Below are positions 35,374 to 52,796 of a stretch of DNA of 64,000 bases, piece by piece. This DNA is from Bacteroidales bacterium. Its GTDB lineage: Bacteria > Bacteroidota > Bacteroidia > Bacteroidales > UBA932. Every line of letters starts with the position of its first letter. Positions within the stretch are counted from its first letter, which is position 1. Made by a program: the position numbers and the translations under genes. Location: the NCBI GenBank assembly GCA_017437755.1, contig JAFRXI010000043.1, forward strand, positions 124,001 to 188,000, written 5' to 3'. Below the pieces are notes generated by a model that saw only the letters and a list, made by a program, of their open reading frames with translations, was not told the DNA's origin and ran no database searches.

Positions 35374-37632
35374 TTATTTCACATAGCCTCTCGTGAGCAT
35401 GAGCAGGCGGTCGGGATAATTTGTTATTATTGCATCCACCCCGCAGTCAATCATCCTCTGAAGGTCTTCCACCTTGTCGGGAGTCCAAGGAACCACCTTG
35501 ATTCCCTCCGAGTGGAAGCGCTCAACCAGCTCCGGAGTTACAATCTCGTAATTGGGGCTCCACCAGTCGGGCTTGAAGTCAAGGAGTCCCATGAAGGCGT
35601 CCACATCGGTCTCGTGGTCGGTAAGATAGGCCAGGAAGAGTTCGGGATACTTCTCGTGCATGTAATTGAGAGCCCTGGTGTCGAAGCACTGGACTATGAG
35701 CCTGTCGCCCAGGTTCTTTGAGAGGAGGACGTTCACGCACAGGTCCGTAAACGACTTGTAATCAGGCCAGTTGACGCCTTCGCCCTTCTTGTCGCGGGAC
35801 TTTATCTCAACGTTGTACCTGGTCGGGGACAGCTTGTGGACGGCAGTGTATTCCTCAATCCGGTCGATAAGGTCGGAAAGGAGAGGCTTCACGGCCGGGA
35901 CAAGTTTCTTGTCGGGCCAGACGTCGTTGTAGAGCATGCCCACGTCGTACCTTGCGATTGAATCGTACGGCATCCTGAACAGATACTCCTTGGGGTCGCT
36001 CTTGAGGACCGGAGTACCGTCGGGACGGGTGGAGCAACGATGGTGGAACCAGCTGTCATGGGAGACCACCACCAGCGAGTCGGCGCTGACCTGGAGGTCC
36101 AGCTCGAGGGTGTTCACGCCCAGGTCCAGGGCGTTCTTCATCGACTCCCAGGTATCCTCCGGCATAAGTCCGGCACCTCCGCGATGGGCCTGGACATCCA
36201 CATAATCAGATAGTTCCTGACGATACTTCCACTCCTTGCCGGCAGGGTCCCTCACCACCAGTTCCACCGACGAGGCATACTGGCTGGTAGGGGTGACGGT
36301 GAAGTAATGGATGTTGCGCCTGGGCCTCTTGTACTTGGGTATCTCCTTTCCGGCGGCCTCGTAGACGGCGTTGATGCTCTTTATGAATGTGGGCGACACG
36401 TCCAGGGCCTCGGTTGCACTTCCCATGAAAACGCCGTCCTGATACCACTCCACGCTCCAGCGGGAATCATAGTCCCAGACATTCGCCACGACGCTGTTGG
36501 GGTTGTACATCGACTGCCCCATGGGGATGAATTCCACCTGGTAGTCATCGGGGAAATCGATGTTGTGCCAGTACCAGGAAAGGCTGTCGGACAGGTTGTT
36601 GAATATCTCGTATCCCCTGGGGGTACCGTCGTTGCAGATATCCGTCTCCCACCAGGTTCCGCAGATGCTGGCGGCATTGTGGTCGTGGATGTCGTCGGAA
36701 TAGGTGAGGTTGTTGAGGATGTGGGTGTGCCCGGACAGGAAATCCACCTTGCGGCCCTCCAGGAGGGAGAGCATCTCGTCACCGAGGAGGCAGTCCTTCT
36801 CCTTGAACCAGAAATACAACGGGGAATGCTGCGCAATGAAGATATGGGTATCCTCGGGGATGTACGACAGGAGGTTCTGCACAAAGGAAAGTTCCTTCCT
36901 GGAATAGCCCACGTCGTATTTTCCGCTCTTTGAGGGGTCGTCAAGGCCGTTGCCCAGGAACTGTATGTTGTTGAGGCCTATCACAAGGTCGTTCCCCAGG
37001 AAGAAGGCCCAGTTGCGGGGGCCGAAGAAATCCTCGTAGGTGCGGGCTGCGGCGTCGCCGGACAGGGTCTGGATGTAGTCGTGGTTGCCGATGACCGAGT
37101 AGAACGGGATCCCGGTCCGGGCTATGGCCTGCTTATAGTCGGGATATATCTCCAGGCGGTTCCACCCGAGGTCGCCCAGGGCGATTCCAACGGTGTTGCG
37201 CTTTGCGGCATGCGTGGCGGCATTGGAAATCAGGTCTTTGAGGGGCGCATCAAGGAACTTCTTCAGATGCTTGGGATTCTGCATCTGGGGGTCCGACACG
37301 GAAAAGAGGGTGTAGTCCGTCGACGGCGAGGTGGGAATCAGCTTGAAGGTGTAGAACTTCTTTTTGGAAAGTTCCTGGTAGAACGCCGGGGAGCCGGAAG
37401 AATAGTCGGCGGTGGTTCCGGAAGGCGTGACAACCTGTACGAAACGGGAATTCCCCGCTACCTTAAGCTTGAAAAAACCGTCGGAATCGGTTGTTGAGAA
37501 ATTGACTCCGTCGGTCACGATGACTCCCTCGAGGGGACGCCCGGCACAACTAACGTTGCCGGTGATTTTCCTTGCCTCAGCTCCGAGGCCGATTGCCAGG
37601 AGCAATAGCAAAGCAGATACAAATCGTTTCAT
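35374..37632 (-). CDS. Metallophosphoesterase-glycerophosphodiester phosphodiesterase fusion
   Basis: 752 aa secreted protein (signal peptide ending GAEA). Regulatory-like beta domain about 22-100; calcineurin-like phosphoesterase about 105-320 with D114-P-Q116, GD154, GN183-H184, H269 and GH302-T-H304; MetallophosC-like domain about 330-460; GDPD barrel about 478-745 with His483 in QAHRGG, Glu510 and Asp512 in TLELDL and His525 in VVSHDSW. The first metal motif is DxQ instead of DxH. Such a two-enzyme protein could cut a glycerophosphodiester and then act on the released phospho-compound. It is divergent from the operon that ends in glpT. Fusion is in one uninterrupted frame. Subunit roles are inferred. 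Confidence 0.87.
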   Translation of the reverse strand: MKRFVSALLLLLAIGLGAEARKITGNVSCAGRPLEGVIVTDGVNFSTTDSDGFFKLKVAGNSRFVQVVTPSGTTADYSSGSPAFYQELSKKKFYTFKLIPTSPSTDYTLFSVSDPQMQNPKHLKKFLDAPLKDLISNAATHAAKRNTVGIALGDLGWNRLEIYPDYKQAIARTGIPFYSVIGNHDYIQTLSGDAAARTYEDFFGPRNWAFFLGNDLVIGLNNIQFLGNGLDDPSKSGKYDVGYSRKELSFVQNLLSYIPEDTHIFIAQHSPLYFWFKEKDCLLGDEMLSLLEGRKVDFLSGHTHILNNLTYSDDIHDHNAASICGTWWETDICNDGTPRGYEIFNNLSDSLSWYWHNIDFPDDYQVEFIPMGQSMYNPNSVVANVWDYDSRWSVEWYQDGVFMGSATEALDVSPTFIKSINAVYEAAGKEIPKYKRPRRNIHYFTVTPTSQYASSVELVVRDPAGKEWKYRQELSDYVDVQAHRGGAGLMPEDTWESMKNALDLGVNTLELDLQVSADSLVVVSHDSWFHHRCSTRPDGTPVLKSDPKEYLFRMPYDSIARYDVGMLYNDVWPDKKLVPAVKPLLSDLIDRIEEYTAVHKLSPTRYNVEIKSRDKKGEGVNWPDYKSFTDLCVNVLLSKNLGDRLIVQCFDTRALNYMHEKYPELFLAYLTDHETDVDAFMGLLDFKPDWWSPNYEIVTPELVERFHSEGIKVVPWTPDKVEDLQRMIDCGVDAIITNYPDRLLMLTRGYVK

Positions 37633-37641
37633 ATCAATGGT

Positions 37642-38064
37642 TTAGATAAGTCCTTTCAAAATAGCATCGTCAAAGTCGCCAAACCACTCGTGCAGGGTTT
37701 CCGCAGCCTTGGCCTTGACTTCGGGAGTTATGTTCCGGGCCACGGAATAGAGTCCCCAGACCAGGGCGGCCAGGTCGTCGGTGAAACCGATGACAGGAAT
37801 GGCGTCGGGCAACAGGTCGAGGGGAAGTATGAAGTATCCGAGTGCACCTATGATCTTGGCCCTGTCCTTCACCGGCGTTCCGGGAGACTTAAGGACATAA
37901 TACAGCAGGAGGGCGGCATAAACGACCTTGATTCCTGCCCTGGCGGCGAATCCCTTCAGTTTTCCCCAGAACTGGTTGTCGGAAAAATTGTCCCGGAAAG
38001 AGGAAAAATTGTCCTCCATCACACTTCGCATGTTGCTGCGGTATTCGTTGTTTTCCATAATCAT
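37642..38064 (-). CDS. DUF1232/YkvA-family small membrane protein
   Basis: 140 aa; an alternative start at 38058 removes two residues. Core VVYAALLLYYVLKSPGTPVKDRAKIIGALGYFILPLDLLPDAIPVIGFTDD carries the DUF1232 signature YFILPLDLxPDxIPVxGFxDD with two membrane helices. Function unknown in the family. It lies 9 bp upstream of the phosphoesterase fusion and probably shares its transcript, with a TAAGTTTG -7 box just before it. Confidence 0.88.
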   Translation of the reverse strand: MIMENNEYRSNMRSVMEDNFSSFRDNFSDNQFWGKLKGFAARAGIKVVYAALLLYYVLKSPGTPVKDRAKIIGALGYFILPLDLLPDAIPVIGFTDDLAALVWGLYSVARNITPEVKAKAAETLHEWFGDFDDAILKGLI

Positions 38065-38077
38065 GCAGTTGATTTTA

Positions 38078-38085
38078 CAAACTTA
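38078..38085 (-). promoter_or_regulatory. -7 box of the DUF1232-phosphoesterase transcript
   Basis: TAAGTTTG on the minus strand, 13 nt before the DUF1232 start codon. The nearest upstream TTTG (38113-38110) is 24 nt away, longer than usual. Confidence 0.4.
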
Positions 38086-38175
38086 CAAGTTTTTTCGGAC
38101 CTTTCCACGCAAAACTTCAATTATCATGCTGAAGTACCGCCACTTTATTAAAGAATTAAATATAGTTGACGTTTA

Positions 38176-38207
38176 TTTGCAATAATCATGAATTTTTAAT
38201 AATTTTC
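38176..38207 (+). promoter_or_regulatory. Candidate promoter of the phosphodiester operon
   Basis: TTTG (38176-38179), 20-nt spacer, TAATTTTC (38200-38207), one base off TAnnTTTG. The start site would be near 38213, about 22 nt before the symporter ATG. If right, it drives the seven-gene run to 52796. Confidence 0.45.
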
Positions 38208-38234
38208 GGGGTTATTTATGCAAATCGTTATACG

Positions 38235-39422
38235 ATGGCCAAAAAGAAGATAAAACTGGGATTGTTTGCAAAAGTCCTGATCGCCCTTGCCTGCGGATCT
38301 CTCCTCGGTTTGGTTGCACCGGATTTCCTGGTTCGCATCTTCAAGACTTTCAACCTCCTGTTTGCACAGTTGCTGAAATTCATAATCCCGCTGCTGATAC
38401 TCGGGCTGGTGACGCCCGCCATCGCAAATGTGGGGAAAGGGGCAGGGAAAATGCTTCTGACGGTGATGGGAATCGCCTACCTGTCCACAATTTGTTCCGG
38501 ATTCTTCGCCCACGTGTGCTCCACAAACCTTTTTCCCTTCTACCTCACCCCTGGAGAACTGTCCTCCGATGCCGTGTCCGCCAGGGAATTCCTCCCTTAC
38601 ATCGAGCTGAAGATACCTCCGGTCTGCGACATCCTTACAGCCCTGGTCCTGTCATTCCTCCTGGGAATCGGCATCATCGTAACCGGTTCTTCCGCACTGA
38701 AGAAGGCATTCGACGACTTTGGGGGCATAATCAGGCTGACCATAGAAAAGGTGATAATACCCATGCTGCCCTTCTACATTTTCACCATGATATGCGAAAT
38801 GGGCGCAAGGGGGGTACTGGCCGTAGTCCTGGGATCCGGAGTCAAGATCATCCTCACCGGCGTCATCCTTTCAATCATTTACCTTATCATACAGTATTCC
38901 GTTGCCGGGGCGATTGCCGGCAAGAATCCTTTCAAATGCCTGTGGAACATGGTCCCGGCCTACCTGACGGCATTTTCCATATGCTCTTCGTCAGCCGTGA
39001 TCCCGGTAACCTCGTCCTGCGCACGCAAGAACGGTATAAGCGACGACATAGTGGACTTTACCATCCCGCTATGCTCAACCGTCCACATGTGCGGCTCCAC
39101 CATCAAGCTTGCAGTTTCCTCGATTGCGGTGGCATATCTCGCCGGAATCCCCATTCCCTTTGCCGTCTATGCCCACTTTGTGCTGATGCAGGGAATCGCG
39201 GCCGTGGCAGCCCCCGGCGTGATGGGCGGAGTACTGATGGCATCGATAGGTCTCCTGGAATCCATAATGGGATTCACCCCGGAACAGACCGCCCTGGTAA
39301 TGACATTATACCTCGCCCTTGACGGATACGGCCCCGCCTGCAACGTGACCGGCGACGGAGCCATCGCCCTCGTCATCGACAAGTTTTTCGAGAAAAACAA
39401 ACCAGCATATGAAAACTCCTGA
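38235..39422 (+). CDS. DAACS-family cation symporter with altered binding motif
   Basis: 395 aa from MAKKKIKLGLFAKV at 38235 (the frame extends 23 codons upstream without support). Eight hydrophobic segments plus re-entrant loops as in GltPh/SstT/DctA symporters: SLLGLVAPDFLVRIFKTFNLLFAQLLKFIIPLLI, then SSAVIPVTSSCARKNG and VDFTIPLCSTVHMCGSTIK. The usual NMDGT sodium/substrate motif reads HMCGS here, so the solute may be unlike glutamate or dicarboxylate. First gene of the operon, overlapping the nitrilase-GDPD gene by 14 bp, so it probably imports a product of that pathway. Solute unknown. Confidence 0.87.
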   Translation: MAKKKIKLGLFAKVLIALACGSLLGLVAPDFLVRIFKTFNLLFAQLLKFIIPLLILGLVTPAIANVGKGAGKMLLTVMGIAYLSTICSGFFAHVCSTNLFPFYLTPGELSSDAVSAREFLPYIELKIPPVCDILTALVLSFLLGIGIIVTGSSALKKAFDDFGGIIRLTIEKVIIPMLPFYIFTMICEMGARGVLAVVLGSGVKIILTGVILSIIYLIIQYSVAGAIAGKNPFKCLWNMVPAYLTAFSICSSSAVIPVTSSCARKNGISDDIVDFTIPLCSTVHMCGSTIKLAVSSIAVAYLAGIPIPFAVYAHFVLMQGIAAVAAPGVMGGVLMASIGLLESIMGFTPEQTALVMTLYLALDGYGPACNVTGDGAIALVIDKFFEKNKPAYENS

Positions 39423-41085
39423 TTTCCGTTGCCTGAGATTCATTTTTCCCGCCGTCATCCTTCTGCTGGCCGGCTGTTTCCAGTCCTGGGCCGCCCCGAT
39501 GAAGGCCAGGGTGATCCAGCAGCTCTACGCCCAGGACCTCAAGGGGCTTGAGAAGAGTTTCAAGTGGACATTGAACGAACTGAAGAAATGCGATCCCAGC
39601 CTTGACATCATCGTCATCGGTGAAAACTGCCATATCCCGGGAAAGACTCCAAATGACCAGGTATACTTCCAGATCGACGCCAAGAACGGGCCCGTTCTCC
39701 TGAAAGCCTGCGCGGAGACGGCAAGGCGCTGCCACTCATACGTATTCGCCGGCGCCCTGGACTCCAGCCTCGGAGCCCCCCGCAACACCATATTCATGTT
39801 CGACCGCAACGGGGAACTCGTGGGAAAGTATTACAAGGAGCAGCTTACCCCGGGCGAGATGAAGCGCCTTGACAAATCCTACACCGAAGAGTGGACAAAG
39901 CCTTACCTCGTTGACATCGACGGCCTGAGGTTCGCCTTCCTTACCTGCTACGATTTCTATTTCTACGAGAACTTCGCCAACATCGCCCGCTGGAAACCGG
40001 ACATCATCATCGGCTGCTCCCACCAGCGCAGCGACACATTCCGGGCGCTGGACATCATAAACTCATTCTGCGCCTACAACACCGGAGCCTATCTTGTACG
40101 CGCCTCCGTATCCATGGGGCTGGATTCAGTCCTTGGCGGATGCTCCTGCGTGGTATCCCCAACCGGTGAGATACTCGGGAACCTCCGTTCGGAAGTCGCC
40201 AGCATGGACATCACTTTCGACCCCAAGGAGAAATACCTCAAGCCGGCCGGTTACGGGAATCCCCCGGCAATGCACTCGGAATACATAGAGAAGGGGCGCA
40301 GGCCATGGAAATACCGTCCGGCGGGCAGCGCGATAGTCACCCCATTCCCCGAGGCCCCCGCCAGGAGGCTGTGCGCCCACCGGGGCTTCTCCTCAGTCGC
40401 CCCCGAAAACTCCCTTGCCGCTCTTGGCGCAGCCGTTGCACTCGGAGCCGCGGAGGTGGAATTCGACCTTTGGTGGACCAAGGACGGCGAGATAGTCTCA
40501 ATCCATGACGCCACCCTGGACCGGGTCTCCGACGGCACCGGAAAGGTTTATGAGAAGACCTACCAGGAGCTGCTCCAGTACGATTTCGGCATCAAGCACG
40601 GAGAGCATTTCAAGGGTCTGAAGATCCTCCGCTTCGAGGACATCCTGAGAAAACTCTCCTGCCACACCATAATGAACATCCATCTCAAGTCCATCCAGAA
40701 CATGCCCTGGGACAGGGCCAACCTGCAGAAGGTGATAGACCTGATACGGGATTACGACGCCCAGGGCCACGTATACTTCATGACCAACAACGGCGCACTG
40801 CATGCACAGCTGATGGAAATGGCTCCGGAAATCCCCCGCTGCATGGGGAACATCCGCGGAAAGGACATAGTGGATGAGGCAATCCGCAACAAATGCCAGA
40901 TGGTCCAGCTGTTCAAGCCTTACTTTGACCAGAACACCATAGACAGGGCCAAGGCCAACGGCATGAGGGTCAACCTGTTCTGGTCCGACGACCCCGAAGA
41001 AGCGGTCAAATACCTGGATATGGGAGTGGAGACCATACTCACCAACGACTACCAGATAATCTCCGCAGCAACCGGCCTGAAATAA
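39409..41085 (+). CDS. Nitrilase-superfamily amidase fused to glycerophosphodiester phosphodiesterase
   Basis: 558 aa lipoprotein (LLLAGC, Cys23). Nitrilase domain about 32-270 has the Glu-Lys-Cys triad: Glu72 (VIGENC), Lys143 (KYYKEQLTPGE) and Cys180 (FLTCYDFYF). GDPD domain about 319-555 has His324-Arg325 (AHRGFSS), Glu334, Glu351 and Asp353 (VEFDLWW) and His366 (VSIHDAT), the full active-site set. One protein could thus cut an amide and a glycerophosphodiester. Being lipid-anchored in an operon with SusC/D, it acts outside the cytoplasm. Candidate substrates include N-acylated glycerophosphoethanolamine or an amide-decorated glycerophosphate polymer; this is inference. I know of no characterised protein with this domain order. 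Confidence 0.87.
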   Translation: MKTPDFRCLRFIFPAVILLLAGCFQSWAAPMKARVIQQLYAQDLKGLEKSFKWTLNELKKCDPSLDIIVIGENCHIPGKTPNDQVYFQIDAKNGPVLLKACAETARRCHSYVFAGALDSSLGAPRNTIFMFDRNGELVGKYYKEQLTPGEMKRLDKSYTEEWTKPYLVDIDGLRFAFLTCYDFYFYENFANIARWKPDIIIGCSHQRSDTFRALDIINSFCAYNTGAYLVRASVSMGLDSVLGGCSCVVSPTGEILGNLRSEVASMDITFDPKEKYLKPAGYGNPPAMHSEYIEKGRRPWKYRPAGSAIVTPFPEAPARRLCAHRGFSSVAPENSLAALGAAVALGAAEVEFDLWWTKDGEIVSIHDATLDRVSDGTGKVYEKTYQELLQYDFGIKHGEHFKGLKILRFEDILRKLSCHTIMNIHLKSIQNMPWDRANLQKVIDLIRDYDAQGHVYFMTNNGALHAQLMEMAPEIPRCMGNIRGKDIVDEAIRNKCQMVQLFKPYFDQNTIDRAKANGMRVNLFWSDDPEEAVKYLDMGVETILTNDYQIISAATGLK

Positions 41086-41107: not shown

Positions 41108-43099
41108 ATGTTAAAGAACAAGATTGAACGGATTATCCTGATATTCACCGTCTTGGCGGCGACGGTCGCCTGTTCCGGGAAAAAAGAGGAGCCGGATCCA
41201 GACGCGCTGGATATCTCGGGAATTGAACTTCCGTCGGTGATAGAGGCGAAATCCGGGGCGGAAATAGCCGTGACCGACCGGAATGGCAATATCAGGACCT
41301 CCGACGTGGTGGTGTTCAATTCCGTCACCGAAAACGGAGGATTCGACTGCGCCGTGGTCAAAACCGATTCCAGGTCGTTCACCTTCAAGCTCAACCCCAA
41401 GATAAACTCCGGCCGTTACATCTGCCATATCAAGAGGGGCCTGAGCGACAAGACCGTGGGAGTCACCAATATCAAGATACTTTCGGCGACGGAAGTGGAA
41501 CCCGGTGACGGAACCATCTATGGTACAGTCACTTGCGAAGGAGCCGCCATAAAGGATGTGGTGGTTTCCGACGGTGTGGAGGTCGTAACCACCGACAAGG
41601 ACGGCATCTACAGGATCAATTCCGGCAAGACCACAGGATACGTATTCATTTCCATCCCTTCCGGTTATGCCGTCCCCACAAAGGGTATCCTCCCCATTTT
41701 CCACCATATTCTGGAGAAGGGTGCCGGCGAGCCCGAGAGGGTGGATTTCACCCTGACCAGGACCTCGAACGAGAAGCATACCGTGCTGGTGATGGGCGAT
41801 ATCCACCTCGCCAACCGCAACAACGACCGGGTGGAATTCAAGAAGTTCACCACCGACGTGATGAAGTACAAGGAAGAGCATCCGGGAGAGGTCATCTACG
41901 GCCTGACCCTGGGTGACATGACATGGGATGTGTACTGGTATACCAACAACTACTACTTCCCCAACTACCTCTCCGACATGAACTCGGTGGTATCAGGCAT
42001 CCCGGTATTCCATACCATAGGCAACCACGACCATGACATGAAGGCGGCCGGAGACATACTCACCATAGTGGATTACGTCAAGGACATCGCCCCCAATTAC
42101 TATTCCTTCAACCTTGGGAAGGTGCATTACATCGTCCTGGACGACATCCTCTGCACCAACGACGGAAGCGGGACATCCGACAGCCGGAAGTACTCTGAGA
42201 AGATCACCGATGCCCAGTATGCCTGGCTGAAGAAGGACCTCCAGTTCGTGGACAAGAACACCCCGGTGGTGGTTTCCATGCATGCTCCCATCTTCCGCGA
42301 CAATAGCTCCACCTACGGTATCACCCCCCATGCCGGTCTCACCGGATGGAGCACCCTGGTCAACTGCTTTACCGGTTACAAGACCGTGCACTTCCTCACG
42401 GGACATACCCACCGCAGCCTCAACGTGGACAGGACCTCGACGTCGAACTACTTCGAGCACAATGCCGGGGCGGTATGCGCCAGCTGGTGGTGGAGCCAGA
42501 AATGCTCCACGGGATTCGACGTATGCACCGACGGAACCCCCGGGGGCTACCTGGTGTGGAAGGTGGACGGGACCGACTTCAAATGGCAGTACAAGGGCAC
42601 CAAGGAGAACCTCGACTACCAGTTCCGTTCCTACGACCTCAACAACGTGTGCTTCGACGCTTCAATGGTGAACACATGGGTGCCCGAGGGCAGCGACTGG
42701 GCAAAGAACCGCTTCGTGGAGCTCTACGCCTCCCGCTTCCCCAAGAGCAGCGCCAACGAAATCCTGCTGAACATCTGGGATTACGACCCCTCCTGGACCA
42801 TCAAACTGGTAGAAAAGACGTCGTCCGGCGACAAGGAGCTCACCTGGAACCAGGTGCAGACACTGGACCCGCTCCATATAATCTGCCTGTCGGCAAAGAG
42901 GCTCAACAGTTCATCCGTAACCTCCGACCCCTCGTTCCTGACCAACCTCTCGTCACACCTCTTCAAGGCAAAGGCATCGGCGCCCGGCACCACCATCGAG
43001 ATTACCGTCACCGACCGGTTCGGGAACGTCTACCGCGAGACCATGACAAGGCCCAAGACCTTCTCGCTGGGAAGCTACAAGACAGGATACGCAAAATAA
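41108..43099 (+). CDS. Calcineurin-like metallophosphoesterase lipoprotein
   Basis: 663 aa, lipobox VACS (Cys22). An Ig-like N-terminal domain (about 33-125) precedes a carboxypeptidase-regulatory-like MetallophosN domain (GTIYGTVTCEGAAIKDVVVSDG, about 135-215), the phosphoesterase core (about 222-440) with D231-I-H233, GD270, GN306-H307, H392 and GH433-T-H435, and a MetallophosC domain to the end. All metal ligands are present. It would hydrolyse phosphomono- or diesters at the cell surface or periplasm. 22 bp after the nitrilase-GDPD gene and 42 bp before susC. It resembles the N-terminal two-thirds of the fusion at 35374-37632, so the two are probably paralogues. Confidence 0.9.
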   Translation: MLKNKIERIILIFTVLAATVACSGKKEEPDPDALDISGIELPSVIEAKSGAEIAVTDRNGNIRTSDVVVFNSVTENGGFDCAVVKTDSRSFTFKLNPKINSGRYICHIKRGLSDKTVGVTNIKILSATEVEPGDGTIYGTVTCEGAAIKDVVVSDGVEVVTTDKDGIYRINSGKTTGYVFISIPSGYAVPTKGILPIFHHILEKGAGEPERVDFTLTRTSNEKHTVLVMGDIHLANRNNDRVEFKKFTTDVMKYKEEHPGEVIYGLTLGDMTWDVYWYTNNYYFPNYLSDMNSVVSGIPVFHTIGNHDHDMKAAGDILTIVDYVKDIAPNYYSFNLGKVHYIVLDDILCTNDGSGTSDSRKYSEKITDAQYAWLKKDLQFVDKNTPVVVSMHAPIFRDNSSTYGITPHAGLTGWSTLVNCFTGYKTVHFLTGHTHRSLNVDRTSTSNYFEHNAGAVCASWWWSQKCSTGFDVCTDGTPGGYLVWKVDGTDFKWQYKGTKENLDYQFRSYDLNNVCFDASMVNTWVPEGSDWAKNRFVELYASRFPKSSANEILLNIWDYDPSWTIKLVEKTSSGDKELTWNQVQTLDPLHIICLSAKRLNSSSVTSDPSFLTNLSSHLFKAKASAPGTTIEITVTDRFGNVYRETMTRPKTFSLGSYKTGYAK

Positions 43100-46100: not shown

Positions 46101-46453
46101 GCAACGTCACCTACCAGAAGAACCAGACGCTCTGTTCAGACATATATAAGTATTACAATACCTACAAGGCAAACCGCTACTGCCTGGACGAGTACTGCTA
46201 CGACACCTCCTACCTCAAGATGAAGGAACTGAGGGTGGAATACAACTTCCCCAAGACCCTGATCGCCAAGACCAGGATCCTCCAGGGGATAAGCGTGGCC
46301 GCATACGCCACCAACCTATTCTGCGTTTCCAAATATCCATTCTTCGATCCGGACTGCGGAACCATCGACGGCTCAACCATCAAGAGGGGCCTCGAGACCG
46401 GTTCCTTCCCGATGAACAGGAGCTATGGTATCAACCTCAAAGTAAGATTCTAG
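43142..46453 (+). CDS. SusC/RagA TonB-dependent transporter of the phosphodiester locus
   Basis: 1103 aa. Signal peptide ending AMAQ, regulatory-like domain (VHGTVFDTDRSNPLTGATVIVEG), plug with VVVRGESSL and ALYVIDGVP, SRAGNGAIIITTKSG, then a beta-barrel finishing YGINLKVRF. Imports a bulky solute across the outer membrane with energy from TonB. Its partner susD starts 1 bp after its stop. The lyase, glycoside hydrolase and sulfatase genes that normally accompany a SusC are absent here; phosphodiesterases take their place, so the cargo is probably a phosphodiester-containing molecule. Confidence 0.95.
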   Translation: MANSLGKSILYTAMTVLSLAMTPVLAMAQNMVHGTVFDTDRSNPLTGATVIVEGKKANAVTDLDGKFTIRADKGDVLIVQFMGYVDGKVTVTGSANYEIVLTPDSEQLNEVIVTALGITREKRSLGYAATDVSGESLTSVQNSNWLTNLQGKVAGLTFNSASSGPINSQRVVVRGESSLNSDASALYVIDGVPVTSGTVANASGSTYTNDAQDNPIDFGDAASDLNPDDIESITVLKGAAATALYGSRAGNGAIIITTKSGRTTKGLGVTYSTSFTADVPSYWPDFQTEYGAGSDLGVNPYNYWPAEYNPDGLSANNSRYAWGEAYGDGTKMRYQYVGMNWDTLMGEKTPWQYRDDWFTGIFQTGYTFDNVLTIEGNTGKGTSVRFSVKDSRNKWILPNTGYTKQTFSFSVNSKLNKTLKLTAKVNYYRTDSDNMPSSAYNNNSIMYILQWMRNNDSMQNYRDEYFGGRLTPEVLAGGNLFANRSDGVAYNPYRTLYEMTNSMDKDRVFGNIGVTVNLWKEKLTFELKSGMDLDHQFRTQRKPWYSYKFLQGWYREQTINICEFNTNWMLKYTDAFFDERLTLTAGLGGNNMTYNANNFKYTIDKLDIEGLYMTSNYPAGTIPDVSTSRSNKVVNSIYGLVSLGWEDWAYLDVTFRNDWSSTLARGYWSYFYPSVSGSLILDKLFNFKDNLPWVSFLKLRASWANVGKDTSPYSLDYNYTTTNFAGGYRVGATMPKIDLAPENVNTTELGLEVKFLKNRIGIDAAIYQSDITNQIYDVPYDYITGAKYYTQNIGLIRNRGIELSVNFVPVKTRDITWEISANAARNVGVLKRMYDGWDNENPHQENYSTGIGGRFQVLDYVGKRMGEIWAKEVYRRAPEGAFYLDENGNQVDCSGAMLLDAASGLPQDSGEFRYYGNANPDWVGGLATSFRWKDLTVSAAFSAQIGGMTYSVSAGILGYQGKLKNTLEGRYDSIVAPGVNEIKDTEGNVTYQKNQTLCSDIYKYYNTYKANRYCLDEYCYDTSYLKMKELRVEYNFPKTLIAKTRILQGISVAAYATNLFCVSKYPFFDPDCGTIDGSTIKRGLETGSFPMNRSYGINLKVRF

Positions 46454-46454
46454 T

Positions 46455-48056
46455 ATGAAAGCAATGAAGTATCTGGCTGCCTTTGCAGCCCTCTGCCTTG
46501 TCGGGGCGGCTTCCTGCACAAAAAACTTTGAGCAGATAAACCACAACCCGAACAGGATCACGTACGGCGACATCCAGGCGCAGAACATGTTCGAGCCCCT
46601 TATCTACGGGATCGGCGGAAAATACCAGGAGAACGCCGGATACTGGACCAACAACCTCATCCAGTACACATGCTATGTGGATGGTGCAGTGCGCTATCTG
46701 GCAACATATTACACCCTGTCCACCGGCAACTGGACCTCTATCTGGGACACCTACGCCAGGTTCGGCTCCGACGCCCAGCACATGATCGACCTCGCCAGGA
46801 CCGAGGGAAAGGAAAGTCCTTTCTATGAAGCGGTCGGGCTCATCCTCAAGGTGCAGACGCTCTATACCCTCACCACTGTATTCGGAGACATTCCCTACAA
46901 GGAGGCCTACAAGAACATCCTCACCCCGGTTTTCGATTCCCAGGAAGACGTCCTAAACTCCATGGTTGGAGACCTGGATGCCGCAACGGCAATCCTCGCC
47001 ACGGCATCCGCACCAGTGAACGCGGCCATCGACCCCGTTTACGGCGGAGCTCCAGCAAAGTGGATAAAGTTTGCCAACTCCCTGAGAATGAGGATACTCT
47101 GCCTTGAGACAGGCATCAACGAATCCTATTGGGGAGAAATCCAGAAGATGATCGACTCCCCTGCAACCTATCCGGTGTTCACGTCCAATTCCGACAACGC
47201 CAAGGTCCCCTTCCAGGAAGTGGATCCCTACAAGTCGTCGATGGGTCCCACGGCCGTGGCTTCGTTCTTCGACGCCTACAGCATGACGGAGCAGATGATC
47301 AAGATGATGAACATCCAGAACGAAGACGGGAACGACATCTATCAGGACCCGCGCCTTGTGATCTTCGCCTCCCAGAAAGGCGGCAAGTGGACGGGTGCCG
47401 TGGCCGGCTGCCTCCTCACCGAAATCTCCAACGAGAAGGCCAAGAAGCCTGCCCAGATGAACGAGAGGGTCCTCTGGAGGGATGCCATGGATTCCTTCCT
47501 CATGGACTGGTCGGAAATCCTCTTCATCGAGGCCGAAGGCATCCTGGCAGGGAAACTGACAGTTCCCGGCCAGACTGCAAAGGCCCTCTACGAGGCTGCC
47601 GTAACCGCCAACATCCAGAAGTGGGCTCCCTACATCACCTACAACAAGAAGTACCGCGAGATCAACGCCGCGGCGATAAACGAATTCCTCGCTTCCGACC
47701 TCGCGTCCTACGACAAGGCCGTGGAGGGCACCGGGCTGTACAAGAGCGCCGAGGAACTCGTGCTTTCGCAGAAGTGGCTGTCGCTGTACTGGGTAGGCGG
47801 ATTCGAGCCTTACACCCACTGGAGGCATTATGAGTACCCGGTGCTGACCATCGGCGACGGAACCGAGGCCAACGGCTTTGAACTCCCCACCAGGTTCGGC
47901 TACCCCAACTACACAGAATCCTCAAACGGCAAGAACGTGGCTGCCGCCCTCCAGAGGATGGGAGGCAAAAACGACATGCATCTGGCCCTTGACTGGAGTT
48001 ACAAGAAGAATCACGGCTCGAGCCGGAATCCACATCCCCAGTACAAGCCCCAATAA
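46455..48056 (+). CDS. SusD-like lipoprotein (SusD_2 type) of the phosphodiester locus
   Basis: 533 aa, lipobox GAASC (Cys21). FEQINHNPNRITYGDIQAQNMF, GGKYQENAGYWTNNLIQYTCYVDG and TVFGDIPYKEA are typical of the shorter SusD/RagB type found next to SusC_2 proteins. It should cap the SusC pore and bind the ligand. Position 2 after susC is standard. The C-terminal NERGRE-type block of classical SusD is not present; ELPTRFGYPNYTESSNGKNV takes its place, as in this subfamily. Ligand unknown, inferred to carry glycerophosphate. Confidence 0.92.
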   Translation: MKAMKYLAAFAALCLVGAASCTKNFEQINHNPNRITYGDIQAQNMFEPLIYGIGGKYQENAGYWTNNLIQYTCYVDGAVRYLATYYTLSTGNWTSIWDTYARFGSDAQHMIDLARTEGKESPFYEAVGLILKVQTLYTLTTVFGDIPYKEAYKNILTPVFDSQEDVLNSMVGDLDAATAILATASAPVNAAIDPVYGGAPAKWIKFANSLRMRILCLETGINESYWGEIQKMIDSPATYPVFTSNSDNAKVPFQEVDPYKSSMGPTAVASFFDAYSMTEQMIKMMNIQNEDGNDIYQDPRLVIFASQKGGKWTGAVAGCLLTEISNEKAKKPAQMNERVLWRDAMDSFLMDWSEILFIEAEGILAGKLTVPGQTAKALYEAAVTANIQKWAPYITYNKKYREINAAAINEFLASDLASYDKAVEGTGLYKSAEELVLSQKWLSLYWVGGFEPYTHWRHYEYPVLTIGDGTEANGFELPTRFGYPNYTESSNGKNVAAALQRMGGKNDMHLALDWSYKKNHGSSRNPHPQYKPQ

Positions 48057-48076: not shown

Positions 48077-51000
48077 ATGAAAAGATCATTATACAGAATC
48101 GCTCTCTCAATATTGTCTGCCGCGGCCATACTGGCCTGCCAGCGGACAGAGATCGAGCCGTCTCCTTCGCTGAAGGTGACCGACGATTCCGACGCTGCCG
48201 TTCTTGAACTCGGACAGAGCCTTGAGTATCTCATGGACCTGGCCTATTTCCAGTACTCTACCGCCGCCAACAATAACAACGAGGTCCTCAAGGCCACCAA
48301 GTTCACGGTGCGTTCCAACTGCAGCTGGAAACTGGTTCCGGTGGGAGAAGAGCCCGAGTGGATACATCCCTTCCCCGACCATGGCGACGACGACGGGAAC
48401 TTCTGCTTCCTGGTGGAGCGGAACAACAGCCAGAGCGACTCCCGCCAGGTCATCTACAAGATGGTCCTCAACGACGGTGCCAAGGATATCGAGATTGGCG
48501 GTGACATCATCGTGACACAGGCCGCGGCGGCTGATTTCCTCAAACTGGGGTCGGCCAAGGTGGAAGTCAACAAAGAAGGCGGAAACGCCTCGGTGACAGT
48601 CACTTCCAACGTTCCATGGACATACTCCCTAGTTCCTAACGAGGATTTCGCATCCCCTGCAATCGAGGAATGGATAGAAGACCGTACGGAACTTGCCGAA
48701 GGTGAATTCAAGCAGACCCTGAAGTTCCACTTCGGCGACAACTCCGACGGTTCGATCCGCGGAGCCACCCTGTTCATCAATGTGGAAGGGCACGATGACC
48801 TGAAAAAGGAAATCCCCATCACCCAGTACGGAGTTGACGTGGAGGTTTCCGGATTCCCCGTACAGTGGCCTTCAAACGCCGGAAACGATGGTTATCCCAA
48901 GTGGGCCTCGGCCGCAAACGCAGTCCCCACAGTACTTTCCAACGTGGGTACCGGCACCATCACCTTCGTGAGGGCGGACGTTCCCGGCCTTGACAGGGCG
49001 GCATCCACCACCGACTGCTCAGGCGGCAACGCGCGTGTCAACGGCGCATGGCCAGGTGATTACTATCTATTCTCCGTTCCTGTAGCCGTCTCGGCCGGAT
49101 CGCTGATCAAGCTTCAGTTCGAGGGCCGTATCTCCGGAAGCGGAATCAGGCACTGGAGGCTGGAATACCTCGACGGCGGAGAATGGAAGATAGCCGGCAC
49201 TCCCCTGACCACCGAGATTGCTGCCGATGATGTCTGGCCTGCCGAAACCATAACCTACACCCACGACATGGCCCCCGGCGGCTCCGGCGACGAATACAAC
49301 AAGATAATCTCGCAGGTAGTCCGTTACGAGACCACCTCGCCCGAGGTGGCATTCCGCTTCATGGCGGTCTCCAACGTAATAGCCTCCAGCGGCGCCAGGA
49401 TGGCAAAACCCACCACGGCATCGGCCCGTCTGGACAATTCCGGCGGCGACAAAGGCTGCGACGCTTCCATCACGTGCGTGGCATCAGGCGGTGAGATATC
49501 CTATGCCGACATCGCCGTCTCCGGCCTCGACAAGGACTTCATAGTATTCGAGGGCGCACCCAAGGCGCCGGCCTCTTTCAGCGTTACCGCTTCCGACGAT
49601 TTCACCGTTTCGGTGGACGTCCCCTGGCTGCATGTTGACGAGGGCGCCACGGGAGTTGCCGACGAGGAAACCGCAGTGAAGGTATCCTGCGACGACAGCA
49701 CCCTTTCCGAAACCCGCGAGGGAACCATCACCATCCTTGCCGGAGTTACCCGCAAGGTTATCTCCGTGATCCAGAGTGCTGCAGGCCAGGAACTTGACCC
49801 CTTCATCAGCATATCTTCCGGGAACTCGGTCAATGCAAAGGCCGACGGCGGCACCACCAACATCAAGGTCCAGGCCAACGTGGAATTCGAGGCTGTCTCC
49901 GATGTTCCGTGGATCACCCTGGAGAATCTTGGCACCAAGGCCATGGTTGAATGGACCACATACGCCGCCACCTACCAGGCCAACGACTCCGGAGCCGGGC
50001 GAACCGGCACCGTACGCTTCTTCAACACCGAGAAGAATATCGAGGCCGTGGTTATCTTCAACCAGGCCTATGAAGAGGCTCCTGACAACAACGACCTCAT
50101 CCAGTGGGGATTCGCAGCTGACCTGATGGGCGCCTACAAGGATTCCTTCGAGAAGGACAACGCCTTTGACGCCAATATCGCCGGCAAGGGAACCCTCTCA
50201 TGGTACAGCCTGCCTGAAAACGTAGCCGCCGACACCGAGAATAAGAAATCACAGCTAATCGGAGGTACCGGCCAGCCTTACGTCACGGGTGTCTGGCCGG
50301 GCGATTACTGGGAGTTCAGCATCCCCGTCTCCGACGTTCCCGCCGGCACCGTGGTGAACTTCTCCGGCCTTTCCAGGTCATCCGCCTCCGGAATGAAGTA
50401 CTGGAGGATGGAATGGTCTGTTGACGGAACAACCTGGACTCCTGTCAAGGAACTCCAGACCGAGACCGAATCGGGCACTTCCGGCAAGTACACCAACATT
50501 ATTACCTCTTCCGACCAGACAGTATCCGAATCGTTCTCACTCACAGGTGCCGTTGCCAAGGGTACCCTGAAGATCCGCTTCACCTGCGCCGCCAACTGGA
50601 CCTGCGGCAACGCGGCCCTTACCGCCCCCAACGGAGGAACCCACCGCTGGTCCGGAGCCGCAGCCAACAACAACTGCGTGAAGATAACCATCGAGAAGCC
50701 CCATGAGCCTCTCCATGCCGAATGGCTGTTCAGTGCCGCGGCAATGGCGGATTCCGAAACCGGATACGCCGCAACCTTCGGAGGAACCACGGCGGTGAAT
50801 GTAAAGGAGGCCGGCGACGGAGGCCTTTACGTGAACTCCAACGTAAAACCGGGCGGAAAGATCCGCTACTTCCAGGTTGACAAGACCGCCATAGATACCG
50901 AAGGCAAGGCCGCCAGGCTTGTAGGTGGCACAGGGCATCCCTTTGTCTACGGCGCATGGCCCGGAGACTACTGGCTGTTCGAGGCTTCCGACGGTTATAC

Positions 51001-51373
51001 CTACAAGGCCGGGACAAAGGTCCATATCAAGTTCATAACCAGGATTTCAGCAACCGGGCACAAGTACTGGAAACTGGAATACTGGGATGGGGCCGCATGG
51101 CAACCGGTAAGCGCACTCAAGGACGGCGAAGTGGGTGAAGGAGAGGCACACCAGACATTCCAGTACAACTTCGAGCCCACTACGGCGAGCTCGAACACCC
51201 TGGTGGACTTTACCTGGACGCTTGCCGCAGACTGCGACAACATGCAGTTCCGGTACACATGCATGGCCGACTATACTGCAGGGAACGCCATACTTCCCGC
51301 ACCCAACGGGGGCACCTGCCGCATAGCGGGGGCCGAAGGCACCTCCCCTGTCTTTGAAGTAGTAACGGAATAA
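48077..51373 (+). CDS. BACON-repeat surface lipoprotein with three WPGDY modules
   Basis: 1098 aa, lipobox ILAC (Cys21). Reads as alternating modules: BACON-like beta domains at about 75-150, 155-250, 500-566 and 576-664 (each with xNVPWxxxxP or similar and a closing VxQxA), and three longer modules at about 255-450, 672-875 and 880-1095, each containing WPGDYxxF (325, 740, 961), xHKYWxLEYxDG-like and a final PNGGTxR block. The WPGDY modules look like carbohydrate- or ligand-binding jelly rolls, but I cannot name the family. No catalytic motif is seen. By place (third after SusC/D) it is the surface capture protein, and three repeats suggest avidity for a polymer. Confidence 0.8.
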   Translation: MKRSLYRIALSILSAAAILACQRTEIEPSPSLKVTDDSDAAVLELGQSLEYLMDLAYFQYSTAANNNNEVLKATKFTVRSNCSWKLVPVGEEPEWIHPFPDHGDDDGNFCFLVERNNSQSDSRQVIYKMVLNDGAKDIEIGGDIIVTQAAAADFLKLGSAKVEVNKEGGNASVTVTSNVPWTYSLVPNEDFASPAIEEWIEDRTELAEGEFKQTLKFHFGDNSDGSIRGATLFINVEGHDDLKKEIPITQYGVDVEVSGFPVQWPSNAGNDGYPKWASAANAVPTVLSNVGTGTITFVRADVPGLDRAASTTDCSGGNARVNGAWPGDYYLFSVPVAVSAGSLIKLQFEGRISGSGIRHWRLEYLDGGEWKIAGTPLTTEIAADDVWPAETITYTHDMAPGGSGDEYNKIISQVVRYETTSPEVAFRFMAVSNVIASSGARMAKPTTASARLDNSGGDKGCDASITCVASGGEISYADIAVSGLDKDFIVFEGAPKAPASFSVTASDDFTVSVDVPWLHVDEGATGVADEETAVKVSCDDSTLSETREGTITILAGVTRKVISVIQSAAGQELDPFISISSGNSVNAKADGGTTNIKVQANVEFEAVSDVPWITLENLGTKAMVEWTTYAATYQANDSGAGRTGTVRFFNTEKNIEAVVIFNQAYEEAPDNNDLIQWGFAADLMGAYKDSFEKDNAFDANIAGKGTLSWYSLPENVAADTENKKSQLIGGTGQPYVTGVWPGDYWEFSIPVSDVPAGTVVNFSGLSRSSASGMKYWRMEWSVDGTTWTPVKELQTETESGTSGKYTNIITSSDQTVSESFSLTGAVAKGTLKIRFTCAANWTCGNAALTAPNGGTHRWSGAAANNNCVKITIEKPHEPLHAEWLFSAAAMADSETGYAATFGGTTAVNVKEAGDGGLYVNSNVKPGGKIRYFQVDKTAIDTEGKAARLVGGTGHPFVYGAWPGDYWLFEASDGYTYKAGTKVHIKFITRISATGHKYWKLEYWDGAAWQPVSALKDGEVGEGEAHQTFQYNFEPTTASSNTLVDFTWTLAADCDNMQFRYTCMADYTAGNAILPAPNGGTCRIAGAEGTSPVFEVVTE

Positions 51374-51401
51374 TTCATAAGTCTTTAAAGCAACTGCATA
51401 A

Positions 51402-52796
51402 ATGGCTCGTTTTTTAGATCCGCCCAAACCGAAGGCGCAAATTCCGGCCGAAAAAGTAGATAAAGAATACAAGGCGATGCGCCTGAAAGTATTCCTGGGG
51501 GCATTCCTCGGTTATGCTGCGTATTACCTTGTGAGGAAGAACCTTTCCCTCGCCGCTCCCGACATGATCAATGACGGGATACTGGACGCGGGAAAGGTCG
51601 GCCTCGCAATGTCGGCGGTCTCCATCGCATATGCATTCAGCAAATTCGTAATGGGCAGTGTATCGGACCGTTCCGACGCAAGGAAATTCCTTGTGGTAGG
51701 ACTGGTCCTTTCCGCCTTGGTGATGATGTCCGTGGGCCTGATTCCGTTCGGGACCAACACGGCGCTGAATACGGTGATAATATTTGTCCTGATGCTGATA
51801 GTGGGGTGGCTGAGCGGCTTTGGATGGCCCCCCTGCGGGCGCATTATGGCACACTGGTTCAGCCAGAATGAACGAAGCTTCAAGATGAGTATCTGGAATG
51901 TATCCCATACCATCGGTTCGTTCTCACTGGGCTTCCTCGCCATCGCAGGCGTTGCCCTGGCAGCCGATATGGGTATTGCCCAGACCTGGAAGGGAAACTT
52001 CGTATTCCCTGCCGTCGTGGCCATGGCGATAGCCCTGTTCTGCTGGTGGGCTATACGCGATACTCCGGAATCATGCGGCCTTCCCGCCGTGGGAGACTGG
52101 AGGAATGACCACAGCGGGGTGAAGTCCAAGGGCACCGCCGGAGAGAAGCTCCCGTTCAAGGTCCTTTTCGTGGATTACGTCCTCAAGAACAAACTCCTCT
52201 GGGTGGTCGCCATATCCAACGTGGCGGTTTACATGGTCCGTTACGGTATCGGAGACTGGGCGCCTACCTATCTCCAGGCAAAGGGAATCATGACCGCGGC
52301 GGAGAGCAAGATTGCTTTCTCCGTCCACAATATCGTGGGCGCCGTAGGTACAATCGCCTGTGGATGGGCTACTTCCAAGTTCTTCAAAGGCCGCTGCGCC
52401 CCGATGAACGTCATCTGCATGTTCCTCTGCGGCATAGGCGTACTTATCTACTGGATGGTGGGCGCAGGAATCCTTTCCGTGGGTCCCGCCGCCCAGAAGG
52501 TGCTCGTTTACGTTGCGCTTTGCCTCATCGGATTCTTCATCTACGGTCCGGTTGCGCTTACTGGCGTCCAGGCCCTAAACCTGGTACCCAAGAACGCAGC
52601 CGGCACCGCAGCCGGATTCGTGGGACTGTTCGGATATCTGCTTGGTGATGCCGTCTGCTCGAAGATAGTGGTGGGCGGCATCGCCAACGGCTCCTCCTGG
52701 GACGCCGCAATGCTTTCCGTGGCCATCGGAGCCCTGATAGGCGTAGTCCTGTGCGCACTCCTCATTCCCAGCGAGAAGCGCGTCACCACTCAGTAG
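51402..52796 (+). CDS. glpT: Glycerol-3-phosphate:phosphate antiporter
   Basis: 464 aa MFS transporter of the OPA family with twelve membrane segments. The match to E. coli GlpT is unmistakable in GAFLGYAAYYLVRKN (Arg45, which binds phosphate, at the same position), SKFVMGSVSDRSD, GFGWPPCGR, RDTPESCGLP and VRYGIGDWAPTYL (the second phosphate-binding Arg). It exchanges periplasmic glycerol-3-phosphate for internal phosphate. It ends the operon of SusC/D, GDPD and phosphoesterase genes, 28 bp after the BACON lipoprotein, and this is the strongest clue that the locus yields glycerol-3-phosphate. A hexose-phosphate specificity is less likely by sequence. Confidence 0.92.
   Translation: MARFLDPPKPKAQIPAEKVDKEYKAMRLKVFLGAFLGYAAYYLVRKNLSLAAPDMINDGILDAGKVGLAMSAVSIAYAFSKFVMGSVSDRSDARKFLVVGLVLSALVMMSVGLIPFGTNTALNTVIIFVLMLIVGWLSGFGWPPCGRIMAHWFSQNERSFKMSIWNVSHTIGSFSLGFLAIAGVALAADMGIAQTWKGNFVFPAVVAMAIALFCWWAIRDTPESCGLPAVGDWRNDHSGVKSKGTAGEKLPFKVLFVDYVLKNKLLWVVAISNVAVYMVRYGIGDWAPTYLQAKGIMTAAESKIAFSVHNIVGAVGTIACGWATSKFFKGRCAPMNVICMFLCGIGVLIYWMVGAGILSVGPAAQKVLVYVALCLIGFFIYGPVALTGVQALNLVPKNAAGTAAGFVGLFGYLLGDAVCSKIVVGGIANGSSWDAAMLSVAIGALIGVVLCALLIPSEKRVTTQ

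Follow-up and report, generated by a model that had tools for sequence, protein, structure and literature searches.

A SusC/D locus of Bacteroidales with GDPD, metallophosphoesterase and GlpT-like genes, predicted to harvest glycerol-3-phosphate

Described systems and the layout of the locus

In Escherichia coli, glpTQ and glpABC encode GlpT, an exported GDPD and GlpABC, which together allow glycerol-3-phosphate (G3P) to be used as a carbon source. SusC/D loci with phosphodiesterases, dedicated to organic phosphorus, have been described in Flavobacterium johnsoniae (PUS/PusCD; PMC8115612). In Gram-positive bacteria, the teichoicase GlpQ of Bacillus subtilis is a Gro3P-releasing GDPD whose Gln188 contacts the C3 hydroxyl of Gro3P (PMC7086022), and scavenging of wall teichoic acid (WTA) by Staphylococcus aureus GlpQ has been reported (Jorge et al. 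2018, cited by PMC9229137). In the open-licence papers searched, we found no description of an outer-membrane system for eating Gram-positive wall polymers.

The locus studied here lies in a 64,000-nucleotide stretch of a Bacteroidales genome (the window; GCA_017437755.1, contig JAFRXI010000043.1), and it shares features with each of these systems. As in E. coli glpTQ/glpABC, there are GlpT, GlpABC and a GDPD whose export is read from its signal peptide; however, E. coli has no SusC/D capture and no metallophosphoesterase lipoprotein, and the GDPD is here fused to a metallophosphoesterase. With Sus-type polysaccharide utilization loci (PULs) it shares SusC, SusD, predicted surface lipoproteins and an operon layout, but the window locus has no glycan-active enzyme and the inner-membrane transporter is an organophosphate antiporter. 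As in PUS, a SusC/D-like complex stands beside phosphodiesterases or phosphomonoesterases and not CAZymes; PUS, however, is induced by Pi depletion and comes with PhoA1, PDEs and PitA (PMC8115612), whereas the conserved partners here are a GDPD fusion, a metallophosphoesterase lipoprotein, a BACON lipoprotein, GlpT and, in some relatives, GlpABC/GlpK. An earlier, sequence-only reading of this DNA knew of no described PUL with such a set; SusC/D loci with phosphodiesterases are in fact known, while GlpT does not occur in the main text of that paper. Finally, the same active-site residues as in B. subtilis GlpQ, Gln188 included, are found here by alignment, but the B. subtilis and S. aureus enzymes are Gram-positive ones (PMC7086022 and PMC9229137), whereas the present one belongs to Bacteroidales and would act in the periplasm, after outer-membrane import.

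The locus extends from position 35374 to 52796 of the window, and an ORF check found all named genes intact. Seven genes lie on the + strand: an SDF (DAACS) sodium:dicarboxylate symporter (38235-39422; closest to the NCBIfam model SstT, with 85.7 bits against a cut-off of 308), a nitrilase-GDPD protein (39409-41085; CN_hydrolase and GDPD), a lipoprotein metallophosphoesterase (MPE, 41108-43099; MetallophosN, Metallophos and MetallophosC), a SusC/RagA TonB-linked outer-membrane transporter (43142-46453; TIGR04056, 585 bits, above cut-off), a SusD lipoprotein (46455-48056; SusD-like_2), an all-beta, multi-domain lipoprotein with a BACON domain (48077-51373) and a GlpT-like antiporter (51402-52796; best model glpT TIGR00712, 459 bits, below the cut-off of 632.55). 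Because they share a strand and the gaps between them are short (-14, 22, 42, 1, 20 and 28 bases, the single base separating the adjacent SusC and SusD), these genes look like one operon. Divergent from them, on the - strand, are a metallophosphoesterase-GDPD fusion (MPE-GDPD, 35374-37632; MetallophosN, Metallophos and MetallophosC, then GDPD) and, upstream of it, a DUF1232 protein (37642-38064) that is probably outside the function of the locus. We regard MPE-GDPD, MPE, SusC, SusD, BACON and GlpT as core, and SDF and nitrilase-GDPD as accessory. Pfam and NCBIfam agree with the sequence-only reading on the SusC/D pair and its lipoprotein, the GDPD fusions, the metallophosphoesterases, the nitrilase domain and GlpT, the last below its model cut-off; the SDF symporter and the DUF1232 gene are two locus genes absent from that reading. 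None of the nine locus genes matched a glycoside hydrolase, lyase or sulfatase in Pfam/NCBIfam. On reading, no substrate-responsive regulator was noticed in the window; a LacI-type gene adjoins GlpT in two relatives (L232 and L236).

Core proteins and gene order in the genus

MPE-GDPD is predicted to be periplasmic, since by reading it has a signal peptide but no lipobox. In the alignment with B. subtilis GlpQ, the residues H43, R44, E70, D72, H85, E152 and Q188 of that enzyme all have their equivalents (E70 and E152 are, we assume, active-site residues), and the GlpQ-equivalent GDPD active-site residues, Gln188 included, are invariant in 39 of 39 MPE-GDPD sequences, the window's counted. Judged by these residues, the GDPD domain keeps a Gro3P-type active site. 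Lipobox cysteines were read in SusD, BACON and MPE of the window; among aligned MPEs this cysteine is present in 23 of 23, and the metal-ligand residues are kept in 22 or 23 of 23. Structure comparison gives MPE a purple-acid-phosphatase-like fold. A substrate could not be called from it: the matches were purple acid phosphatases and SMPDL3A at TM 0.27-0.32 by query length. By sequence, MPE has no relative in the PDB at E<=0.01, and the search for papers naming MetallophosN/MetallophosC gave only two, both on plants. The BACON lipoprotein is presumed to bind cargo at the surface; a glycan-binding fold was considered for it and rejected, its model (pLDDT 76.9, pTM 0.42) having met only generic beta-sandwich chains among the matches listed. 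In the GlpT-like protein, which does not reach the family cut-off, R45, K80, H165 and R269, presumably the substrate-binding residues of E. coli GlpT, are all kept in the alignment to 1pw4. Both in the window and in ten relatives, grpE/dnaJ lie near its gene.

SusC genes are dense in the window's own genome, with 47 matches (a 48th passes the cut-off only with its pieces summed) and up to 45% of the genome within 15 kb of one, contig ends being unclipped in this figure; a single GDPD near a SusC therefore says little. Gene order was thus compared in 250 genomes of the genus, the same sample for each search. It contains 40 full-length MPE-GDPD loci, of which 26 with at least 10 kb upstream were counted, whereas 13 with less than 10 kb upstream (L166, L215, L217, L220, L223, L226-L231, L238 and L240) and L039 were set aside. 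SusC and/or SusD lie upstream of MPE-GDPD in 21 of the 26 (binomial p 2.4e-4 against the 45% SusC background, loci being counted regardless of relatedness). The remaining five have no SusC/D in the upstream stretch, and in most of them the far side is covered for less than 2 kb. L039, whose upstream stretch is short, has SusC/D downstream and makes a 22nd SusC/D-bearing locus outside the 21/26 count. All 22 have MPE, which adjoins SusC in 20, and 12 have GlpT in the stretch. Starting from SusD, MPE is present in 14 of 17 other loci, and in the remaining three the contig breaks off on the SusC side. Other loci use the SusD_RagB kind; the SusD-like_2 kind of the window was found in one of 296 genomes across the phylum at E<=1e-40, its own.

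Downstream steps appear in the same neighbourhoods. In 22 further genomes, matches to GlpT and to a stand-alone GDPD are no more than 50 bases apart, as in E. coli glpTQ. GlpABC is on the same contig as the window locus in its own genome. In G523 (L283, L233), BLAST shows a collinear array GlpA-GlpB-GlpC-GlpT-MPE-SusC-SusD-BACON-MBL-MPE-GDPD, and in G430 (L285, L216, L282) GlpK and GlpABC flank the block, in the order GlpK, MPE-GDPD, GDSL, MPE-SusC-SusD-BACON and GlpT-C-B-A; GlpA, GlpB, GlpC and GlpK exceed their equivalog cut-offs (members scanned from L216, L244 and L245).

Chance co-location of SusC/D and GDPD is thus rejected by conserved gene order across the genus, not by the single window, which answers the doubt that glpT and the GDPD genes might be coincidental neighbours. 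Taking into consideration this synteny with GDPD, metallophosphoesterase and GlpT, and GlpABC/GlpK in some relatives, it is very likely that what the locus imports is G3P. The capture-to-uptake route for glycerophosphodiesters suggested by the sequence-only reading keeps its SusC/D, MPE-GDPD, MPE and GlpT parts and loses nitrilase-GDPD.

Proposed route and cargo

We consider it probable that this is a SusC/D outer-membrane capture locus round a glpTQ-like module that harvests G3P, by the steps set out here. From the observed gene content, synteny, active-site residues and genomic GlpABC, we infer locations, step order, direction of use and cargo as follows. At the surface, SusD, the BACON lipoprotein and MPE would bind a glycerophosphodiester-containing polymer, which MPE would trim, and the fragments would pass through SusC/D with TonB into the periplasm. 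There, the GDPD domain of MPE-GDPD would free sn-glycerol-3-phosphate at chain ends while its MPE domain removes other phosphoryl groups. GlpT would bring G3P in and Pi out, and anaerobic GlpABC would convert G3P to DHAP, the gain being carbon and electrons.

The most likely cargo would be a glycerol teichoic acid from Gram-positive members of the gut community. WTA that is free of D-alanyl and alpha-glucosyl groups is degraded by B. subtilis GlpQ (PMC7086022). The absence of glycoside hydrolases noted in the sequence-only reading, true of the window locus, does not extend to two relatives: GH31 is in the block of L234 and L236, and NAGLU in that of L234 (selected extra genes scanned). GDSL esterases were found in L166 and L241 by Pfam and in L214 and L216 by BLAST. 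In relatives, these enzymes would take off the alpha-glucosyl, alpha-GlcNAc and D-alanyl/acetyl substituents by which GDPD is blocked. Some relatives also encode an MBL protein; among solved structures, the teichoic acid phosphorylcholine esterase Pce/CbpE is nearest to it (1wra; E 1e-7, a weak match over two short stretches). The family of the MBL protein is broad, with matches in 99 of 250 genomes and at least seven in the richest. Because of these additions, a substituted glycerol teichoic acid fits best, a plausible reading if somewhat short of probable. The argument rests on relatives, and on some of them, since the window locus has no glycoside hydrolase, esterase or MBL protein and its genome no MBL match at E<=1e-20. 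That GH31 is nearest to entries named alpha-xylosidase also tells against it. More tentatively still, the loci may form a dedicated teichoic-acid utilisation family of a rumen/gut Bacteroidales genus, in which Gram-positive wall polymer or debris feeds GlpT and GlpABC, and interchangeable SusC/D and side-chain enzymes match the substitutions. Sulfatases next door in L034 and L212 hint at a different or sulfated cargo, and the glycerol-1-phosphate-dehydrogenase-like gene of a distant relative, L049, also counts against the proposed reading. Gram-positive wall polymers should abound in gut and rumen; a SusC/D locus coupled to GlpT and GlpABC would mean that the Sus machinery also serves to gain carbon from glycerol-phosphate polymers, and such a locus would give a route for Bacteroidota-Firmicutes cross-feeding or necromass use. 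MPE lipoprotein, MPE-GDPD and GlpT could serve as a marker set in metagenomes.

GDPD and GlpT are also the classical proteins for deacylated phospholipids, and the cargo could be lysophospholipids or phospholipid-derived GPC, GPE, GPG and GPI, with diet, host or ciliates as their source, GDSL as a (lyso)phospholipase and MPE as a head-group phosphatase. The GDSL gene is beside or near MPE-GDPD in L166, L214 and L216, and also in the L241 locus, and the Pce-related MBL enzyme could act on phosphocholine. GPC, GPE and GPG are listed in connection with GlpQ (PMC7086022), and use of host phospholipids has been reported for the S. aureus enzyme (PMC9229137). However, these diesters are small molecules, for which capture by SusC/D ought to be unnecessary, and the in-block GH31 and NAGLU, which help to choose among the cargo options of the sequence-only reading, would have no role; we regard this source as unlikely.

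The same GH31 and NAGLU genes, with the neighbouring sulfatases and the two SusD kinds paired with the same phosphoesterases, would suit an ordinary glycan PUL in which GDPD, MPE and GlpT merely remove and recover glycerophosphoryl or phosphoryl decoration. Yet the window locus has no glycan-active gene, and what stays constant from block to block is the phosphoesterases, glycoside hydrolases occurring in two (selected extra genes scanned), which makes this reading rather improbable.

In E. coli, GlpT swaps G3P for Pi, so that little net phosphorus is gained. This exchange, together with GlpABC in the G523 array and GlpABC and GlpK flanking the G430 block, which point to carbon and electrons, makes it quite improbable that, as in PUS, the role of the phosphodiesterases and SusC/D is to scavenge phosphate from organic compounds when Pi runs short, even with MPE in every SusC/D-bearing MPE-GDPD locus and with Flavobacterium SusC/D loci with PDE/PME being induced by Pi depletion (PMC8115612).

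The SDF-nitrilase-GDPD cassette

In the window, nitrilase-GDPD has the catalytic residues of both domains, overlaps SDF on the same strand and is followed closely by MPE; SDF-nitrilase also stands beside EamA-GlpT-MPE-SusC/D in G437 (L241), and SDF-EamA-GlpT-MPE occurs in G559 (L242). That the pair is integral to the G3P route is nonetheless very unlikely, given that the cassette was not found in 17 of 17 other SusD loci (several on short contigs), that SusD and nitrilase-GDPD occur together only in G000, G612 and G618 of the 250 genomes, that one of 24 other genus loci lies inside a GlpT/SusC/D locus (7 of the 24 being on contigs <10 kb), that the GDPD catalytic residues are lost in 22 of 23 aligned genus homologues while, of the nitrilase residues, Lys and Cys are unchanged in 24 of 24 and Glu in 23 of 24 (one gap), and that, among the best 80 of 324 relatives, no SusC/D of the window kind is near. 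Nitrilase-GDPD was thus rejected as a core gene, and the place that the sequence-only reading gave it in the route is not upheld; the cassette would be a separate accessory that landed in the window operon.

The full fusion was found only in the window's own genome among 198 genomes of the order and 199 of the family, the other matches being to the GDPD part alone. Within the genus, 25 of 250 genomes have matches; only those of the own genome and G463 span nearly the whole protein without a break. Of the 324 confirmed relatives, the best 80 (52-73% identity) come from MAGs titled Bacteroidales/Bacteroidia, Kiritimatiellae/Verrucomicrobia, Lentisphaerae, Clostridia and others. No gene other than SDF recurs as a direct neighbour in more than a few of these 80 loci. 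SDF adjoins the relative in 12 of them, among which are 9 of the 9 from MAGs with Bacteroidales or Bacteroidia in the title, and in L053 a SusC of another kind lies about 3 kb away.

Recurrence of the SusC/D locus in the genus

The sequence-only reading had proposed a SusC/D locus for glycerophosphodiesters, with GDPDs, metallophosphoesterases, a nitrilase domain and GlpT, and the genes it named are intact in the window. On the minus strand lie a metallophosphoesterase-GDPD fusion (MPE-GDPD, 35374-37632, assigned by Pfam/NCBIfam) and a DUF1232 gene (37642-38064). The plus strand carries a sodium:dicarboxylate-type symporter (SDF, 38235-39422), a CN_hydrolase-GDPD fusion (nitrilase-GDPD, 39409-41085), a lipoprotein metallophosphoesterase (MPE, 41108-43099), SusC (43142-46453), SusD (46455-48056), a BACON-domain lipoprotein (48077-51373) and a GlpT-like glycerol-3-phosphate (G3P):phosphate antiporter (51402-52796), with intergenic spacing of -14 to 42 bases from SDF to GlpT; the SDF and DUF1232 genes had been missing from the reading's list.

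The genome (2.88 Mb, 76 contigs, 84.9% complete) has six GDPD matches and 47 SusC matches over the cut-off (a 48th, passing only if its pieces are summed, was left out), a dense outer-membrane uptake repertoire that places up to 45% of the genome within 15 kb of a SusC match. Since a single SusC/GDPD co-location therefore proves little, 250 genomes were sampled from the genus, and every search was run on this one set. GlpT was found in 207 of them, nitrilase-GDPD in 25 and SusD of the window kind in 16; the MPE-GDPD query matched in 110, with 40 full-length fusions. The synteny count took in the 26 full-length loci whose upstream DNA reaches 10 kb or more; thirteen of the 40 fell outside it because theirs is shorter. 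SusC and/or SusD was upstream in 21 of the 26 (binomial p 2.4e-4 against the 45% background, ignoring relatedness of the genomes) and in none of the other five (L210, L211, L212, L218, L225), although L210 and L211 carry GlpT a few kb off. With one locus outside this count where SusC/D is downstream (L039), 22 SusC/D-bearing loci were obtained; MPE is present in all 22, directly adjoins SusC in 20, and is accompanied by GlpT in the same stretch in 12. These results show that the co-location is not coincidental. The same phosphoesterases occur with two SusD kinds: the window has SusD-like_2, while L216, L232 and L241 have SusD_RagB.

GlpT lies about 3 kb or less from grpE/dnaJ in the window and in L034-L037, L210, L211, L232, L235, L237 and L239, which argues for a single ancestral site. 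Compared with its relatives the gene order in the window is rearranged, GlpT being last in the block and MPE-GDPD on the other side and opposite strand. A Y1_Tnp (IS200-like) transposase-type gene (52938-53813, minus strand) sits between GlpT and dnaJ, close to the point where the gene order departs from that of the relatives. A LacI-type regulator adjoins GlpT in L232 (2948-4009) and L236 (17148-18206), and none was noticed in the window. Some large genes within or beside the blocks (L209, 9794-15447; L039, 1185-6053) match no Pfam family above its cut-off and are possibly further binding proteins.

Link to glycerol-3-phosphate metabolism

In genome G523 (L283, L233) the genes, named by BLAST, form a collinear array, GlpA-GlpB-GlpC-GlpT-MPE-SusC-SusD-BACON-MBL-MPE-GDPD, MBL being an MBL-fold protein. 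In G430 (L285, L216, L282) the succession is GlpK, MPE-GDPD, a GDSL esterase, MPE-SusC-SusD-BACON and GlpT-GlpC-GlpB-GlpA, with a likely glycerol facilitator, identified by eye, after GlpK. An NCBIfam scan covering selected members of three loci placed GlpB and GlpC (L216), GlpA and GlpB (L244), and GlpC and GlpK (L245) over equivalog/subfamily cut-offs. In the window's own genome GlpABC lies some 85 kb off, on the contig that holds the window, and by match coordinates a stand-alone GDPD lies at most 50 bases from GlpT in 22 further genomes of the sample. Given that GlpT exchanges G3P for Pi, and with GlpABC at hand, the locus looks more like a carbon and electron route than a phosphorus route.

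Like the window locus, the PUS/PusCD systems of Flavobacterium combine SusC/D complexes with phosphodiesterases, and they are induced by Pi depletion (PMC8115612; see also PMC8812569). Also published is GlpQ-type WTA scavenging, in S. aureus (PMC9229137, in the part available, citing Jorge et al. 2018). The open-licence literature, mostly titles and abstract openings, yielded no description of a SusC/D locus that includes GlpT, nor of one that serves teichoic acid.

The SDF and nitrilase-GDPD cassette

While the SusC/D-GDPD-GlpT coupling and the G3P link drawn by the sequence-only reading are supported, its placing of nitrilase-GDPD in the G3P route is not. A genome-collection scan confirmed 324 relatives of this fusion, and the neighbourhoods of the best 80, from MAGs titled Bacteroidales/Bacteroidia, Kiritimatiellae/Verrucomicrobia, Clostridia and others, were examined. 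Among these best 80 of 324, SDF adjoins the fusion in 9/9 Bacteroidales/Bacteroidia-titled loci and in three Kiritimatiellae- or Verrucomicrobia-titled ones, no SusC/D of the window kind lies nearby, and no gene recurs next to the fusion in more than a few of the Clostridia loci. Within the genus, the SDF partner is kept in 23 of 24 other loci, the 24th being cut short by the end of its contig (for L259, similarity search and locus reading together establish the pair). Only one of the 24, from G437 (L241), was seen within a GlpT-MPE-SusC/D locus, seven being on contigs under 10 kb. G559 (L242) reads SDF-EamA-GlpT-MPE up to the contig end, and in L250 a SusC of another kind is about 3 kb from nitrilase-GDPD. 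All 24 aligned sequences retain Lys and Cys of the nitrilase and 23 retain its Glu, with one gap; the catalytic residues of the GDPD domain are lost in 22 of 23 aligned genus homologues, and kept only in the window and L250. We conclude that SDF and nitrilase are an independent cassette, with a putative amide substrate, recruited into the window operon.

The SDF-nitrilase(GDPD) cassette (window 38235-41085; L050-L129; L246-L268) is common to gut Bacteroidales and some Kiritimatiellae/Verrucomicrobia; Clostridia, among the best 80 of 324, also have the fusion, at 52-57% identity.

Active sites and candidate cargo

The MPE lipobox cysteine is invariant (23/23), its metal-ligand residues are kept in 22 or 23 of 23, and its predicted structure (pLDDT 86.4) finds its matches among purple acid phosphatases and SMPDL3A. 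The antiporter scores 459 bits, below the GlpT family cut-off of 632.55, and on alignment keeps the residues that we take to be substrate-binding in E. coli GlpT. MPE-GDPD has no true lipobox, the two pattern matches among 38 sequences both being inside the mature domain. Its GDPD domain, nearest to 3ch0, can be aligned to B. subtilis GlpQ (5t91) and has equivalents of all seven of His43, Arg44, Glu70, Asp72, His85, Glu152 and Gln188 (numbered by an offset worked out from the 5t91 chain), invariant in 39/39 sequences. In GlpQ, His43, Arg44 and His85 touch the phosphate and Gln188 the C3 hydroxyl of Gro3P; the enzyme is exolytic, degrades unsubstituted WTA and not intact LTA, and requires chains without D-alanyl and alpha-glucosyl groups (PMC7086022, in the part available).

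The window alone cannot separate a polymer from head groups as the cargo. In relatives, the interval between SusC/D and MPE-GDPD holds NAGLU and GH31 in L234 and GH31 in L236. L237 (Pfam) and L239 (BLAST) have a second MPE there, and an MBL-fold protein occupies this place in L232 (Pfam) and, judged by similarity, in L233, L235, L237 and L239. Alpha-GlcNAc occurs on teichoic acids. Of the solved proteins, Pce/CbpE, the teichoic acid phosphorylcholine esterase of the pneumococcus, is most closely related to the MBL protein (E 1e-7, over two short collinear stretches; the next, a competence protein, 7e-4). This family is broad, with matches in 99 of the 250 genomes and none in the window's own; of eight members at 78% identity or more, seven are beside MPE or MPE-GDPD, while the eighth stands at the end of its contig. 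A GDSL esterase adjoins MPE-GDPD in L166 (Pfam), L214 and L216 (BLAST), and another is in the L241 locus (Pfam). Because D-alanyl and alpha-glucosyl groups block GlpQ, alpha-glycosidases and esterases beside a GlpQ-type enzyme fit substituted teichoic acid best, and a glycosylated, alanylated glycerol teichoic acid would be our tentative choice of cargo. Against it, sulfatases lie beside L034 and L212, GH31 is nearest to entries named alpha-xylosidase, and the window locus itself has no GH31, NAGLU, MBL or GDSL esterase. Head groups are a less likely cargo, and other glycerophosphorylated glycans seem slightly less probable again.

A distant SusC/D relative (L049:692-19952, genome G428) carries MPE, an S1/P1 nuclease, a GlpT-like MFS protein and a glycerol-1-phosphate-dehydrogenase-like gene (Fe-ADH_2; PRK00843 at 148 bits, below the cut-off of 413), a set that would go with a cargo of the sn-glycerol-1-phosphate type, LTA or archaeal lipids for instance.
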